A stretch of 64,000 nt of DNA from positions 1-64,000 of the forward strand of contig JAEUTO010000011.1 in NCBI GenBank assembly GCA_016787785.1, written 5' to 3'. Below, piece by piece: positions 45,065-50,314 of the stretch. Source of the DNA: Bacteroidia bacterium (GTDB lineage: Bacteria > Bacteroidota > Bacteroidia > B-17B0 > Aurantibacillaceae). The notes beneath the pieces were generated by a model. It was not told the origin of the DNA, did not search any database, and saw only the letters and a list, made by a program, of their open reading frames with translations. Position 1 is the first letter of the stretch; each line of letters begins with the position of its first letter. The position numbers and the translations under genes are program-made.

Positions 45065-45093
45065 TTGTGATGAGCAGAAAATTGCTACTTTTA
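45065..45093 (+). promoter_or_regulatory. Bacteroidota promoter: TTG, 18 bases, TACTTTTA, for rlmD
   Basis: TTG (45065-45067) lies 18 bases from TACTTTTA (45086-45093), one base from TAnnTTTG. The ATG at 45103 follows 9 bases later. It rules out the earlier in-frame starts at 45067 and 45070. Confidence 0.65.
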
Positions 45094-45102
45094 CAGCCCG
45101 CT

Positions 45103-46512
45103 ATGAGCAAGATCAAAAAGAATTTTATATTAGAGAACCTTGAAGTAATTGACACCAGTACTGAAGGCAAAGCTATTGCAAAACACGATGGCATGGTGGT
45201 TTTTATTGATGGCGCTGTGCCGGGCGATGTGGTGGATGTAATGGTACATCGCAAAAAAAATAATCTTGCCGAGGGGAAAGTAGATAAGATCATAAAATTC
45301 TCAGAACTAAGAGCAACTCCAAAATGCGAACATTTTGGAACCTGCGGTGGTTGCAAATGGCAAAATCTTTCTTACAAAAGTCAGCTGGAGTTTAAGCAAA
45401 AATATGTTTACGATGCTTTCACACGCATTGGCAAATTAACTTTTCCCGAAATTACACCTATACTTGGTAATGCGGATGAATATTATTACCGCAACAAATT
45501 AGAGTTTGGTTTCTCTAACAAAAAATGGTTAACCAACGAGCAAATTGCGTCTAAAGAAGAGGTTGAAAATAAAAATGGTTTGGGTTATCATATTGCCGGA
45601 TTGTTTGATAAGATCCTGGATATAAATAATTGTCACTTACAACCCGAGCCAAGTAATTCAATACGTAATGCTGTAAAGGAATACGCTTTAAAGAACGATC
45701 TTTCTTTTTTTGGAATAAGGGATAAAGTGGGTTTATTGAGGACCTTATTGATCCGTACAACCAGTATTGGCGAAATTATGGTTGTTGTTTCTGTTTTTGA
45801 ATGGCAGGAAAAAGAAGTGTTTGCTTTGCTGGATTTTTTGAAAACAACGTTCCCGCAAATAACTTCGTTACAGTACACGCATAACAATAAAGGAAACGAT
45901 ACTTTTTTTGGCCTGGATATTAAGACCTATTATGGTCGCGATTACATTTTGGAAGAGATGGAAGGGCTTAAATTTAAGATCAGCGCTAAATCTTTTTACC
46001 AGACCAATTCGCCGCAAGCCTATAATTTGTATAAAATTACCCGCGACTTTGCGGGTTTAACCGGAAATGAGGTAGTTTATGACCTTTATACCGGAACCGG
46101 AACCATTGCCAACTTTATAGCCAATAATGCGAGGCAAGTTATTGGTATTGAATATGTTGAAGATGCTATTAAGGATGCCATTGAGAACTCAAAAGCCAAT
46201 AATATTACCAATACTACCTTTTTTGCAGGTGATATGAAGGATGTTTTGGACGATAAGTTTATATTAAAAAATGGTAAACCCGATGTTATTATTACCGATC
46301 CGCCCAGAGCGGGCATGTTTGAAGGTGTAATTAGTGTGATCTTAAGGGTTTTACCTAAAAAAGTGGTGTATGTGAGCTGTAATCCGAGCACACAGGCCAG
46401 AGACCTTGCCTTAATGGAGGGCCATTATAACATTGTTAAGGTGCAACCGGTAGATATGTTCCCTCAAACAGCTCACGTTGAAAACGTTGTTTTGTTGGAG
46501 CTGAGGCCTTAA
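45103..46512 (+). CDS. rlmD: 23S rRNA (uracil-5-)-methyltransferase, RlmD/RumA family
   Basis: A protein of about 469 residues that methylates a uridine of 23S rRNA (U1939 in E. coli RlmD; family members can also hit U747 or tRNA U54). An N-terminal TRAM domain (about 1-70) is followed by the Fe-S cysteine cluster CEHFGTCGGCKW with a later Cys in NNCHLQ. The SAM domain shows DLYTGTGTIANFIA, GIEYVEDAIKDA, TDPPRAGM and the catalytic VYVSCNPSTQARDL. I chose the ATG at 45103 because of the promoter at 45065-45093. It is divergent from truA. Confidence 0.92.
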   Translation: MSKIKKNFILENLEVIDTSTEGKAIAKHDGMVVFIDGAVPGDVVDVMVHRKKNNLAEGKVDKIIKFSELRATPKCEHFGTCGGCKWQNLSYKSQLEFKQKYVYDAFTRIGKLTFPEITPILGNADEYYYRNKLEFGFSNKKWLTNEQIASKEEVENKNGLGYHIAGLFDKILDINNCHLQPEPSNSIRNAVKEYALKNDLSFFGIRDKVGLLRTLLIRTTSIGEIMVVVSVFEWQEKEVFALLDFLKTTFPQITSLQYTHNNKGNDTFFGLDIKTYYGRDYILEEMEGLKFKISAKSFYQTNSPQAYNLYKITRDFAGLTGNEVVYDLYTGTGTIANFIANNARQVIGIEYVEDAIKDAIENSKANNITNTTFFAGDMKDVLDDKFILKNGKPDVIITDPPRAGMFEGVISVILRVLPKKVVYVSCNPSTQARDLALMEGHYNIVKVQPVDMFPQTAHVENVVLLELRP

Positions 46513-46655
46513 TACCACTATTTTAACTCTTTTTTACAGTTAATTCTCAACTTTTTGTAGAAATACCCTGCGATGGGTAGTCACATTGTTATTAAAAAGT
46601 TTGGCCATGTGGTTATTTATATGTTATTTCGCATTAAACTTTAAAAAACTCAAAA

Positions 46656-46901
46656 ATGAAAAAAATTACTTTACTAGCAATTGCAGTTGTTGCAATTAGC
46701 TTTGCGTCTTGTAAAAAAGAACGCGAATGTGAGTGCACGACTACTAGCACAGCTGGTAGCTCTAGCTCAACAGGTACGTATACTGTAAAATACGCTAAGA
46801 TCTCTAAAGGAGATGCTAAAACTGTATGTACAAAAACTTCTCATGTTAGCACTAACACTGGTGGTAGTTCTTCATTCATTACAGATTGTAAAATAAAATA
46901 A
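46656..46901 (+). CDS. small Cys-rich lipoprotein, array member 1 (type A)
   Basis: An 81-residue protein with a lipoprotein signal (MKKITLLAIAVVAISFASC, lipobox FASC, Cys 19). The mature part begins CKKERECEC, then a Ser/Thr-rich linker, the motif YAKISKGDAKTVC, another Ser/Thr stretch and the end DCKIK. The Cys positions are 19, 25, 27, 58 and 78. It is first of five tandem paralogs; the next gene begins 11 bases after its stop. I do not recognise the family and assign no function. Export to the periplasm or surface and one or two disulfides are inferred. Confidence 0.8.
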   Translation: MKKITLLAIAVVAISFASCKKERECECTTTSTAGSSSSTGTYTVKYAKISKGDAKTVCTKTSHVSTNTGGSSSFITDCKIK

Positions 46902-46912
46902 TTATTAAGAAA

Positions 46913-47203
46913 ATGAAAAAACTAATTTTATTAGCAGTAGTAGCTGTAGCAGTTACTAGCGCTTCATGCAGAAAAGATCACACTTGTACTTGCAACAATA
47001 CACAAACAAATACAGTTACTCCAACTTCTGGTTCAGCTATCGTTACAACGACAACTGATACTGACGTTTGGACTGCATCTAAACAGAAAAAAGGTTTCGC
47101 AAGAAACGCTTGGGATTGCCATGAGAAAACTACAACTTCTACTTCATCAGGTACTGGTTACACCAGCACTACTGTAACTGAAGAGAAATGTACTTTCAAA
47201 TAG
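46913..47203 (+). CDS. small Cys-rich lipoprotein, array member 2 (type B)
   Basis: A 96-residue paralog. Lipobox SASC with Cys 19, mature start CRKDHTCTC, a Thr-rich middle, then the type B motif SKQKKGFARNAWDC and the end EEKCTFK. The Cys positions are 19, 25, 27, 69 and 93. It differs from member 1 in the longer middle and the KQKK...N..C motif. A terminator at 47224-47255 ends this first pair. Function unknown. Confidence 0.8.
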   Translation: MKKLILLAVVAVAVTSASCRKDHTCTCNNTQTNTVTPTSGSAIVTTTTDTDVWTASKQKKGFARNAWDCHEKTTTSTSSGTGYTSTTVTEEKCTFK

Positions 47204-47223
47204 TAGTTACATACTAAATATAT

Positions 47224-47255
47224 AAAAAAGCCGTTCTTAACGAACGGCTTTTTTT
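47224..47255 (+). terminator. rho-independent terminator between lipoprotein genes 2 and 3
   Basis: A 7-bp GC-rich stem (GCCGTTC / GAACGGC) extended by six A-T pairs, with loop TTAAC and a long T run. It divides the lipoprotein array into a pair and a triplet. Confidence 0.92.
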
Positions 47256-47272
47256 ATGCCTTTTAAATTCAT

Positions 47273-47280
47273 TACCTTTC
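47273..47280 (+). promoter_or_regulatory. possible -7 box (TACCTTTC) for lipoprotein genes 3 to 5
   Basis: One base from TAnnTTTG, 16 bases upstream of the ATG at 47297 and just past the terminator, so the triplet probably has its own transcript. Confidence 0.35.
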
Positions 47281-47296
47281 CATTCTAAAATAATAA

Positions 47297-47551
47297 ATGA
47301 AAAAAATTAAGTTAGTTTTAAGTATAGCCCTGCTTGTTCTTTTCTTTGCCTGCAAAAAAGACAGAACATGTGAATGTACAGCAACTACCTTAAGCCCTTC
47401 TGGCAACACTACCACCGCCCCAACAAAAACCGAAACTTATACAAAAATGAAGTTGAGCGAAGCTAAATCAATTTGCCAACGATCAACTGTAATAACTGCC
47501 AACGCACAAGGCAGTGTTACTACCGTAACCAACGATTGTAAACTTAAATAA
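47297..47551 (+). CDS. small Cys-rich lipoprotein, array member 3 (type A)
   Basis: An 84-residue paralog with lipobox FFAC (Cys 19), mature start CKKDRTCEC, type A motif YTKMKLSEAKSIC and the end NDCKLK. Cys positions are 19, 25, 27, 60 and 81. The stop TAA shares one base with the ATG of member 4, showing translational coupling. It follows a terminator, so it probably starts the second transcript of the array. Function unknown. Confidence 0.8.
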   Translation: MKKIKLVLSIALLVLFFACKKDRTCECTATTLSPSGNTTTAPTKTETYTKMKLSEAKSICQRSTVITANAQGSVTTVTNDCKLK

Positions 47552-47838
47552 TGAGAAATAAATTTTTAATACTCTTTTTTCTTTCTGTTATCCTTTGCAT
47601 CTCTTGCAGAAAAACGCGTACCTGTGATTGCAATTTAACAACTGAAAAAAATACAGTTGTTGGAACAACCACTAATACCGAAACAACAACAACTTACACT
47701 ATTACAACCAAGAATAAACAAAAAAAAGAAGAGTTTAAAAAAAACGAGTCCTGCTACAACTCAAGCCTAACATACACTACAGAAATAATTGGAGGCACTA
47801 CGGTTACAAAAGAAACTAAAAAGTGCACTTTAAAATAA
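47551..47838 (+). CDS. small Cys-rich lipoprotein, array member 4 (type B)
   Basis: A 95-residue paralog. Signal MRNKFLILFFLSVILCISC (Cys 19), mature start CRKTRTCDC, a long Thr-rich region, type B motif NKQKKEEFKKNESC and the end KKCTLK. The Cys positions of the mature protein are 19, 25, 27, 68 and 92. It overlaps member 3 by one base and is followed 19 bases later by member 5. Function unknown. Confidence 0.8.
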   Translation: MRNKFLILFFLSVILCISCRKTRTCDCNLTTEKNTVVGTTTNTETTTTYTITTKNKQKKEEFKKNESCYNSSLTYTTEIIGGTTVTKETKKCTLK

Positions 47839-47857
47839 TTTCTGATAAAAATAAAAT

Positions 47858-48088
47858 ATGAAAAAAGCAATAAGTTTATTACTTATATTGTTTTGTTTAA
47901 TTTCCTGTAAAAAAGACAGGCTTTGCGAATGTGTCGTTGAAACTGCAGCGGGAACCACGGTTACCGAAACCACATTATATGATGTAAAAAAACGTGAAGC
48001 TCGCCTTAATTGCATAGGGAGTCAAACAGTTACTAAAACGGCCACAAGCACTACAACAAGTGTTAAAACAACCTGTAAATTAAAATAA
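47858..48088 (+). CDS. small Cys-rich lipoprotein, array member 5 (type A)
   Basis: A 76-residue paralog, the shortest. Lipobox LISC (Cys 17), mature start CKKDRLCEC, type A motif YDVKKREARLNC and the end TTCKLK. Cys positions are 17, 23, 25, 52 and 73; the spacing from the lipid Cys to the CxC pair (6) is the same as in all other members. It ends 4 bases before the stop of the convergent VWA gene. Function unknown. Confidence 0.8.
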   Translation: MKKAISLLLILFCLISCKKDRLCECVVETAAGTTVTETTLYDVKKREARLNCIGSQTVTKTATSTTTSVKTTCKLK

Positions 48089-48092
48089 AGGT

Positions 48093-49232
48093 CTAGTTGG
48101 CGCGGATACTTCCATTCTTAATAATATAATCAAAACCATTTATATTAAATTTTTTACCCGAGGTTTGATTTATTAATTCAGTGATGTCTTGCTCAATAGT
48201 GTGTATAGACCCTTTTGTTTTATAAGCAATATTTAAATAATCGGTGTTTATTTCCATCCCTTCATAAACGCCACACAAGATCACCCTCACCGGCACCTTT
48301 ATTCTCGAAAGCAAAAGAATGTCGCGCACTTTTGCCCAGTTATCTGCAATTAAAATAACATTATCGGGCTTCCGCACTTTTTTTAAGCCGGTTAAAATAG
48401 CTTCTATCACATTCTCAGGCGAATCGCCACCTGAGCCTTTTTTGATGGTTAGTTTCATGGTATTCACAAGGTCTTCGCAGGTTTTTGCACGGCACACATA
48501 AATGCCACCGGTAACACCTAATTTTTTATCCGCGTCGCGTTTGTTATCACCATCGTTAAAAAAAACAAAGTATTGTTGCGCGGTATCTTTTACAAAAAAT
48601 AGTTTTAGCCAGGTGTTAATTTGTTTCGCATAAGGATACATGCTCGACGTAAGATCTGTTACAATAATATTTTTTTTCCATTTTGGGTTTCGGTTCAAGA
48701 TCTTGTAAACACTATTGTTTACAGTATCCTCAATGTCTGCCTCAAATTCTATTGGTCCGGTTGTAGTACGACTTTCAAAATCAAATTTACCTGTCTTGGT
48801 GTACACCTTATAAACTCCGTCTAAATTTCCTTTTTTATAATAGCCTTCCGCTTTTAAGCGTCCGTTTGTATGGTAGGTCAACTCAAGACCTTCTTTTACG
48901 CCATTTTTATAATTCTCTATAAATTCTTTAGCGCAGTTTTTAGAATAAAACGTTACCGGCCCGTCTAATTGCCCGTTGTTATAATAGGTTTCTTGTTTTA
49001 CGCAACTGCTGTGGTACCAGCTTATTTCTAAACCATGCTTTTTATTGTTTCTGTATGTAACCTCATTCTTTAATTTACCGGTGGGCCAATAGCTTCGCCA
49101 CACGCCTTGTTTAAGACTGTCTTTATCAATCGCGTTAATAGTATCGCCCTCGTGTATAGAATAAGAAACCAATTGTGCCTTTGTTAGGGGCGCATTGATC
49201 AGCAAAAATGCTATCAGCAAAAGAAACCTCAT
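48093..49232 (-). CDS. secreted protein with MORN-like repeats and a VWA-type domain
   Basis: About 379 residues from the chosen start. A signal peptide (MRFLLLIAFLLINAPLTKAQ) is followed by YwqK/MORN-like repeats at about 30-155 (GVWRSYWPTGKLKNEVTY, NNGQLDGPVTFYSKN, NGRLKAEGYYKKGNLDGVY). The C-terminal half resembles a von Willebrand A fold, with the metal-site-like IIVTDLTSSMYPYAKQI, a second motif GSGGDSPENVIEAIL and VILIADNWAKVRD. I chose ATG 49232 over the longer start at 49274, since the former begins directly with the signal peptide. It is convergent with the lipoprotein array and divergent from pheS. Role unknown; binding of another surface protein is a guess from the domains. Confidence 0.75.
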   Translation of the reverse strand: MRFLLLIAFLLINAPLTKAQLVSYSIHEGDTINAIDKDSLKQGVWRSYWPTGKLKNEVTYRNNKKHGLEISWYHSSCVKQETYYNNGQLDGPVTFYSKNCAKEFIENYKNGVKEGLELTYHTNGRLKAEGYYKKGNLDGVYKVYTKTGKFDFESRTTTGPIEFEADIEDTVNNSVYKILNRNPKWKKNIIVTDLTSSMYPYAKQINTWLKLFFVKDTAQQYFVFFNDGDNKRDADKKLGVTGGIYVCRAKTCEDLVNTMKLTIKKGSGGDSPENVIEAILTGLKKVRKPDNVILIADNWAKVRDILLLSRIKVPVRVILCGVYEGMEINTDYLNIAYKTKGSIHTIEQDITELINQTSGKKFNINGFDYIIKNGSIRAN

Positions 49233-49253
49233 CTTATAATCTTTAAAATTGTT

Positions 49254-49261
49254 TATTTTTG
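49254..49261 (+). promoter_or_regulatory. Bacteroidota -7 box (TATTTTTG) for pheS
   Basis: Exact TAnnTTTG match 27 bases upstream of the ATG at 49289. It lies in the short divergent gap with the VWA gene. Confidence 0.55.
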
Positions 49262-49288
49262 TACAGATTATCAAGTAATTAAGTAAAT

Positions 49289-50314
49289 ATGCTCGAAAAA
49301 ATACATAAGTTGTTGGAAGAAGTGGAATCTTTTGGCGCGCAAAGCAAGGACCAGGTTGAAGAGTACCGCATTAAGTGGCTTAGCAAAAAAGGAGAGGTTA
49401 CGGCTTTATTTGACGATTTTAAAAATGTACCCTCTGATCTTAAAAAAGAAGTTGGCCAAAAATTAAATCTTTTAAAAACAAAAGCTCAGGAAAAAATAAA
49501 TGAGCTTAAAGAAAAATTTGAGTCAGAATCCGATATTAACGATAAAAAAAGTATCGATCTTACTTTACCCGCCCTCCCTACTTTGCAGGCTGGCAGCCGT
49601 CACCCGCTCTCTCTTGTAAAAAATCAGATCATTGATATTTTTGCCCGCATTGGTTTTACCGTGAGTGATGGAAAAGAAATTGAAGACGATTGGCATAATT
49701 TTTCTGCATTAAATACGCCCGAAAATCATCCTGCGCGCGATATGCAGGATACTTTTTATGTGAACATAAATCCCGAAATGGTTTTAAGAACACAAACTTC
49801 TTCTGTGCAGGTTCATATAATGGAACATCAAAAGCCGCCTATTCGTACTATTTCACCAGGCCGCGTTTACCGTAACGAAGCCATCAGCGCCCGCGCGCAT
49901 TGTCAGTTTCATCAGGTAGAAGGTTTGTATATTGATGAGAACGTTTCGTTTGCCGATCTGAAGCAAACGCTTTTGTATTTTTCGAAAGAGATGTTTGGCG
50001 CAGAAACAAAAATAAGATTACGCCCAAGTTATTTTCCATTTACTGAGCCAAGTGCCGAAATGGATATTAGTTGCACCATTTGCAAAGGCAAAGGTTGTAA
50101 CGTTTGTAAATATACTGGCTGGGTTGAGATCTTAGGTTGCGGAATGGTAGATCCTCAGGTACTCACGAATTGCGGAATTGATGCCAATAAATACAAAGGC
50201 TTTGCTTTTGGAATGGGCATTGAAAGAATAACCATGTTAAAATACCAGGTTAAAGACCTGCGTTTATTTTTTGAGAACGATGTGCGTTTCTTAAAACAAT
50301 TTACCTCTGCTTAA
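49289..50314 (+). CDS. pheS: phenylalanyl-tRNA synthetase alpha subunit
   Basis: A 341-residue catalytic subunit that charges tRNA-Phe together with PheT (not in the window). An N-terminal coiled coil (about 1-90) is followed by the class II core: HPLSLVKNQIIDIFARIGF, FYVNINPEMVLRTQTSSVQ, PGRVYRNEAISARAHCQFHQVEG split over motif 2, SYFPFTEPSAEMD, the Cys-rich CKGKGCNVCKYTGWVEILGC and motif 3 GFAFGMGIERITML. Length is normal. A TPR gene follows after 13 bases. Confidence 0.97.
   Translation: MLEKIHKLLEEVESFGAQSKDQVEEYRIKWLSKKGEVTALFDDFKNVPSDLKKEVGQKLNLLKTKAQEKINELKEKFESESDINDKKSIDLTLPALPTLQAGSRHPLSLVKNQIIDIFARIGFTVSDGKEIEDDWHNFSALNTPENHPARDMQDTFYVNINPEMVLRTQTSSVQVHIMEHQKPPIRTISPGRVYRNEAISARAHCQFHQVEGLYIDENVSFADLKQTLLYFSKEMFGAETKIRLRPSYFPFTEPSAEMDISCTICKGKGCNVCKYTGWVEILGCGMVDPQVLTNCGIDANKYKGFAFGMGIERITMLKYQVKDLRLFFENDVRFLKQFTSA

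Follow-up and report, generated by a model that had tools for sequence, protein, structure and literature searches.

A family of small Cys-rich lipoproteins in Bacteroidia, encoded as adjacent A-B gene pairs

Introduction

Five consecutive genes for small, Cys-rich lipoproteins, alternating in type in the order A-B-A-B-A, occupy positions 46656-48088 of the window, by which we mean the whole 64,000-nucleotide stretch of DNA analysed here (contig JAEUTO010000011.1 of the Bacteroidia bacterium assembly GCA_016787785.1). The locus raises the question of what these proteins are, and whether the two types belong together. The first-pass annotation of this DNA knew of no described family with the pattern, and took the alternation to suggest the duplication of an A-B pair. 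Our conclusion is that the array lipoproteins are a real, uncharacterised family, and that their organisation is surprising. These small lipoproteins are numerous in the genus and are found in part of the class, and yet they are without a family model. An obligate A-B pair, cassettes bounded by terminators and a linked thiol oxidase would also lead to clear predictions on pairing and on disulfides in Bacteroidota envelopes.

The five genes of the array

All five plus-strand open reading frames are present (Table 1; loci other than the array are given by L numbers). In each of them a K-rich start is followed by a hydrophobic stretch and a lipobox Cys, the K/R-rich start, hydrophobic stretch and Cys that mark a substrate of signal peptidase II, as read from the sequence. 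All five then have C-[KR]-K-x-x-x-C-x-C, as proposed for the array, one further Cys, and C-[KT]-[ILF]-K at the C-terminus. When the five are aligned over their whole length, the invariant positions are M1, the lipid Cys, K at +3, the CxC, the middle Cys and the near-C-terminal Cys. The division into two types is also real, although the type motifs need adjusting: the helix motif of type A is better written [KR]x(1-2)[ED]A[KR]xxC, and the motifs of the two B genes can be aligned only with a shift of one residue.

Two of the five genes stand apart from the others. B1 matches the B profile weakly (E=9e-9) and forms a long branch outside the supported B clade of the tree. A3 is an outlier with a long branch outside the A clade and no B gene downstream; its best match is a singleton from a sister genus (L196). 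The ATG of B2 overlaps the stop codon of A2 by 1 nt, and only 4 nt separate the stop of A3 from the end of a gene that converges on it.

For the mature parts of A2 and B2, compared with two relatives, dN/dS is 0.04-0.06 and 0.13-0.15 respectively, with dS near 1. Both are therefore under purifying selection, which argues that the array genes are real and not chance open reading frames. Paralogues and orthologues of the array genes occur across the genus.

It is worth adding that the convergent gene (48093-49274, minus strand) encodes a MORN-repeat protein with an uncharacterised C-terminal half. It is found at the array site in 7 genomes and is absent from the site in others (L166, L172, L185).

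Table 1. Features of the array, its surroundings and related loci. Coordinates are those of the window; names of housekeeping neighbours are by sequence reading.
Feature	Location	Strand	Remarks
RNA uracil-5-methyltransferase, rlmD-like; flanking, outside the system	45067..46512	+	Pfam tRNA_U5-meth_tr; fixed-site marker in 11 genomes
Bacteroidota-like promoter elements (TTTG ... TTATTTCG), ahead of A1	46595..46655	+	consensus reading only
A1, four-Cys lipoprotein, first member of pair 1	46656..46901	+	81 aa; A clade; A-profile E=6e-20
B1, four-Cys lipoprotein, second member of pair 1	46913..47203	+	96 aa; 11 nt after A1
Intrinsic terminator closing pair 1	47224..47254	+	13-bp stem, T tract; fold z-score -5.5
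A2, four-Cys lipoprotein, first member of pair 2	47297..47551	+	84 aa; alignment, tree
B2, four-Cys lipoprotein, second member of pair 2	47551..47838	+	95 aa; alignment, tree
A3, unpaired A-like lipoprotein, last gene of the array	47858..48088	+	76 aa; open reading frame
pheS; flanking, outside the system	49289..50314	+	Pfam tRNA-synt_2d, E=4e-99; fixed-site marker on the other side
Loci linked to MauE-thioredoxin	L171, L186, L188, L189, L190, L191, L193, L194, L196		
Housekeeping neighbours	L010		groEL
Housekeeping neighbours	L230; L234		gap; pgk
Housekeeping neighbours	L236; L235		2-oxoglutarate dehydrogenase E1/E2; Lon-like
Housekeeping neighbours	L089 and L090		mnmA, E2 acyltransferase

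Definition and distribution of the family

The family set consists of 155 distinct mature sequences gathered from relatives. The spacing of exactly six residues from the lipid Cys to the CxC, first noticed in the array, holds in 155/155, with a search pattern that permitted offsets of 5-7, and position +3 is K in every one of the 155. Besides the lipid Cys there are exactly four Cys in 154/155 members and six in the remaining one; none has an odd number.

Within the genus, the family was found in 37 of 40 genomes (profile, E<=1e-5), most of which hold 2-12 confident copies and some very few. The window's own genome has a second A-B pair elsewhere (L009, 3614-4199, minus strand), as well as several looser paralogues. 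In the class as a whole, 76 of the 395 genomes sampled gave matches at E<=0.003, this threshold being used because E<=1e-6 is too strict for a profile of 65 residues. Viral contigs and plasmids were also searched and contained no family members.

Comparison with known families

No Pfam, NCBIfam, PADLOC or PDB family covers the array proteins, which bears out the view that they belong to no described family. All Pfam matches of the window genes were below cut-off (New_glue PF21827, 18.2 bits against 31; DUF4995 PF16386, 17.0 against 28.4), as was every NCBIfam match of a window gene; scans of the wider family gave no assignment either, and a sequence/profile search of the PDB gave 0 matches. 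A literature search for such a lipoprotein family found nothing.

The nearest approach to a curated family is to the PG1828 lipoproteins (NF050142). The founding member, from Porphyromonas gingivalis, is triacylated. PG1828 lipoproteins resemble the array in being small Bacteroidota lipoproteins with a K-rich start and a Ser/Thr-rich mature part, and a weak match to their model is seen for 54 of the 109 array-family members compared (best E=1.7e-7). Against membership, the best window member scores only 31.9 bits where the cut-off is 50, no match rises above cut-off across 21 genomes, and the similarity is confined to the signal peptide and the Ser/Thr-rich part. The model's other sub-threshold matches in relatives differ from the array in lacking the CxC and the two later Cys. 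We therefore rejected the assignment, and regard it as hardly plausible at all. Two matches that fall just short of the cut-off, L092:1462-1659 and L093:1347-1541 (both minus strand), are low-complexity lipoproteins that are unrelated to the array and have no CxC.

Two better known groups of lipoproteins offer a more general comparison. RcsF, Llp and Cor are small outer-membrane lipoproteins in which a lipid-anchored domain is held together by disulfides. The likeness is in the way of working, as a small lipid-anchored domain stabilised by disulfides; the array differs in having no significant fold match in the PDB and in its A-B pairs, RcsF, Llp and Cor being single genes. The NCBIfam model for Cor gave one chance-level match, to a single family member. 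Braun lipoprotein (Lpp) is likewise small and often present in multiple copies, and many array-type proteins share with it a Lys end; the array proteins, unlike Lpp, are predicted to form a beta domain with disulfides and not a coiled coil. The C-terminal Lys by which Lpp is cross-linked to peptidoglycan is not a constant feature here, since Lys is the last residue in 107/155 members and N, S, D, E, Q, L or I in the rest.

Predicted fold and disulfides

Structures for A2 and B2 were predicted by AlphaFold2, using the window sequences together with related ones. The mean pLDDT is 85 for A2 (about 95 in the mature part) and 87 for B2, with blocks of the mature parts at 93-96. The predicted mature fold of both is beta-beta-alpha-beta-beta. 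Foldseek comparison with the PDB gave best E values of 0.18 (A2) and 0.073 (B2), with TM-scores of about 0.4 or less, and comparison with the viral structures of BFVD gave no significant match. The mature domain has about 57-80 residues and starts almost at the lipid; in the models, strand 1 begins two residues past the lipid Cys, so that the domain would have to sit close to the membrane. Conservation peaks near both termini of the mature protein (residues 19-28 and the last five), in the helix and at the hairpin glycines, while the strand faces and loops are variable.

In the models strand 1 carries the CxC, the third Cys comes just past the helix, and the final strand carries the fourth. 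We infer, with good support, that the four Cys form two disulfides, which tie the CxC strand both to the end of the helix and to the final strand. In support of this, the number of Cys is always even, and the lone exception to four gains two; a conserved, even number of Cys in an exported domain is what a two-disulfide domain should have, and this is what is found in the family. The window's genome encodes a VKOR.

A second candidate catalyst came from the neighbours of family genes elsewhere. In nine loci (Table 1) a gene for a MauE-thioredoxin fusion lies 55-73 nt downstream of a family gene, on the same strand. The fusion protein has a MauE domain with NCGCFG, and a thioredoxin-like C-terminal part with CPHC; in the three of the nine proteins that were scanned, the MauE domain (PF07291) scores 78-85 bits against a gathering threshold of 27 (E=1e-22). 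MauE is known from the maturation of methylamine dehydrogenase, and CPHC is the active site of DsbA. With its MauE domain well above the Pfam cut-off and its C-terminal CPHC part, the fusion resembles MauE/DoxX and VKOR-thioredoxin fusions, and its sequence suggests that it is likely to be a disulfide catalyst, thiol-oxidase-like; its genomic partner is however this family of small lipoproteins, and not methylamine dehydrogenase as for MauE.

The nine loci span two lineages, one a different family of the same class (f69) and the other a genus (g156) within the family to which the window belongs. Apart from the fusion gene, the neighbours in one lineage are not those in the other, which implies that the adjacency is not mere shared synteny. 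In L171, the two members of the pair beside the fusion gene share 72% and 59% identity with the first pair of the L164 array. A strong terminator-like hairpin separates the family gene from the fusion gene in 9/9 loci, with little room for a promoter, an arrangement that would be compatible with low-level read-through, giving much lipoprotein and little enzyme. In the window's genus an orthologue of the fusion is present as a single copy in 37/40 genomes (33/33 of the good ones), and in the loci that were read it is not beside the array. Given this, and the terminator in the nine loci, any link would be by read-through or looser.

These observations bear on the possibility that the CxC and the two further Cys bind copper or zinc, which would make the proteins metal chaperones or buffers. 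CxC is a common metal ligand motif, and many copies occur in one genome. Nevertheless, the even number of Cys, and the exception that gains two, are as disulfides predict; the Cys have no conserved His or Met beside them, no metal-transport genes were recognised among the neighbours, and the neighbour in nine loci is thiol-oxidase-like. Metal binding thus seems to us very improbable.

A and B genes as pairs

The first-pass annotation had distinguished A and B as types that might always be neighbours, and the two do co-occur consistently. Two profiles, one of the A clade (19 rows, support 95/92) and one of the B clade (15 rows, 95/88), were used to search 40 whole genomes of the genus, with adjacency on the same strand read from the coordinates and A matches taken at E<=1e-19. 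B lies just downstream of A in 20/20 cases, and A just upstream of B in 23/23. The B profile was built from genes beside A genes, the search itself being genome-wide, and it found no orphan B gene among its 23 matches in the 40 genomes. No natural A-B fusion, which would have spoken for contact, occurs among 114 members.

The spacing of the genes points to the same units. Gaps within pairs are about -5 to 32 nt and those between units 65-191 nt, and an intrinsic terminator is found in 0/57 of the short gaps and in 14/15 of the long gaps between family neighbours. The array itself is probably transcribed as two units, A1-B1 and A2-B2-A3, divided by the terminator that closes pair 1.

The distances of 41 first members, set against those of their second members, show a mirror correlation of r=0.78. 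Shuffling the partners within genomes that have several pairs gave a mean of 0.39 and a maximum of 0.72, with 0/5000 shuffles reaching the observed r. The A-B pairs are inherited as units. Contact between the two proteins does not follow from this, because linked neighbours give mirrored trees anyway; physical A-B pairing is our inference.

The main alternative is that these are abundant and largely independent structural lipoproteins, an envelope 'filler' or stress protectants, in which A and B are adjacent through tandem duplication and co-transcription and make no contact. This would suit the single domain and conserved base common to all members, the mirrored trees, which linkage alone leads one to expect, and the free variation in copy number, down to very few members in some genomes. 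It would also suit the singletons and odd-numbered arrays (A3; L186, L187, L195 and L196), which indicate that some members need no partner. Tandem duplication should however also yield A-A and B-B neighbours and orphan B genes, and none were seen among the 23 B genes. The partner shuffles, too, break the correlation, though linkage also predicts that. We consider independent lipoproteins a serious possibility, if probably not the right one.

A fixed chromosomal site with changing content

The array occupies a fixed site, truA-rlmD-[2-6 family genes]-pheS. The genes truA-rlmD precede the array in 11 genomes, and pheS follows it in all ten whose contig continues. Among close relatives the flanking genes are 78-98% identical while the pairs turn over. 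Comparison of the window with L163 or L164 illustrates this: identity is 94-98% for truA, rlmD, the MORN-repeat gene and pheS, and the A2-B2 pairs are orthologous, while the first pair is of another lineage, being 48-56% identical in the mature part and 83% in the signal peptide.

This disagrees with the proposal that the alternation arose by duplication of an A-B pair, at least in its simple form. Within the A clade, A1 and A2 are not placed together, and close relatives retain A2-B2 but have a different first pair. A1-B1 and A2-B2 are thus old, separate lineages, and A-B-A-B-A is not the product of one recent pair duplication; it is a local mix of old pair lineages together with one unpaired A-like gene, A3, of another lineage.

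The sequence upstream of A1 is shared with that upstream of the first gene in the syntenic L161, L163, L164, L165, L169 and L159. Such conservation of the leader holds even between genes of different pair lineages; between the window and L169, for example, identity is 98% in the DNA of the signal peptide and 54% in that of the mature part. This looks as though cassettes had been exchanged, or genes converted, behind a leader that stays the same.

Across window positions 46586-46720 and the same six loci the upstream and signal DNA of the first gene is far more conserved than the mature part. Three more fixed sites were seen in which the number of family genes varies from species to species while the neighbours are constant (L158/L170; L160/L182/L183/L184; L167/L180).

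Such turnover could be the mark of a diversifying envelope repertoire, in which pairs serving as phage or bacteriocin decoys, receptor blockers or immunity lipoproteins are swapped behind a conserved promoter and signal peptide. The different first pair in two relatives, despite the near-identity of their flanking proteins, the contrast between signal and mature DNA in L169, and the variable copy number at several fixed sites all fit this reading. Orthologous pairs are however under strong purifying, and not diversifying, selection; no toxin or defence genes were recognised beside the arrays; PADLOC gave one chance-level match (E=0.008) in 109 members and no known anti-phage defence system, and PHROGs only stray weak matches. 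The lack of homologues in viral contigs and plasmids speaks against it too, and for the same reason an origin from phage or plasmids was rejected. We consider a diversifying repertoire unlikely.

Location in the envelope

Surface export of lipoproteins depends on an export signal (LES) that needs two acidic residues after K (PMC5080379; similarly PMC6222051), K-D alone being insufficient in C. canimorsus (PMC5080379). The signal was taken as K-(D/E)2 at +3 to +5 (Capnocytophaga) or S-(D/E)2 (Bacteroides). C-x-K-[DE][DE] is present in 0/155 members, most of which have C-[KR]-K-[DE]-[RY], and surface export by LES was therefore rejected. This absence leads us to favour the periplasmic face of the outer membrane as the probable location, on a consensus that comes from other groups and may not be that of this order. 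No SusD homologues were found in the window's genome. The O-glycosylation sequon D[ST]x is rarer in the family than in shuffled tails (13 against 60), the shuffle being an unfair control in that Asp sits in fixed motifs (DAK, DC).

Proposed mechanism

The proposal that we prefer is as follows. The proteins would be exported by Sec, processed by signal peptidase II and carried by Lol to the outer membrane, and their four Cys would be oxidised in the periplasm by the MauE-thioredoxin fusion, by VKOR or by both. Each A would be made together with its B from a single dicistronic message, and the two would act as matched partners, probably a heterodimer, with the basic, conserved base at the membrane and the variable, Thr/Ser-rich hairpins pointing away from it. 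Pairs would duplicate, diverge and be replaced as whole units at fixed sites, leading to species-specific sets. As a complete chain, with lipidated, two-disulfide A and B proteins acting as cognate pairs in the outer membrane, we put this forward tentatively, at slightly less than an even chance.

A bolder version would see a modular repertoire of heterodimers, in which promoter and signal peptide are conserved and the cognate pairs behind them, oxidised by a dedicated MauE-thioredoxin enzyme, are exchanged as cassettes and give each species its own modules for envelope recognition or exclusion. This is speculative, and we think it decidedly improbable.

Other family loci

Single family genes or small groups of them often adjoin core housekeeping genes (Table 1). 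A long subtype of about 122 aa was also seen, at L230:4234-5543 (minus strand), directly 3' of a gene for a larger lipoprotein and a gene whose start resembles that of a TonB receptor. The same subtype of about 122 aa occurs in L089 and L090, with other neighbours.
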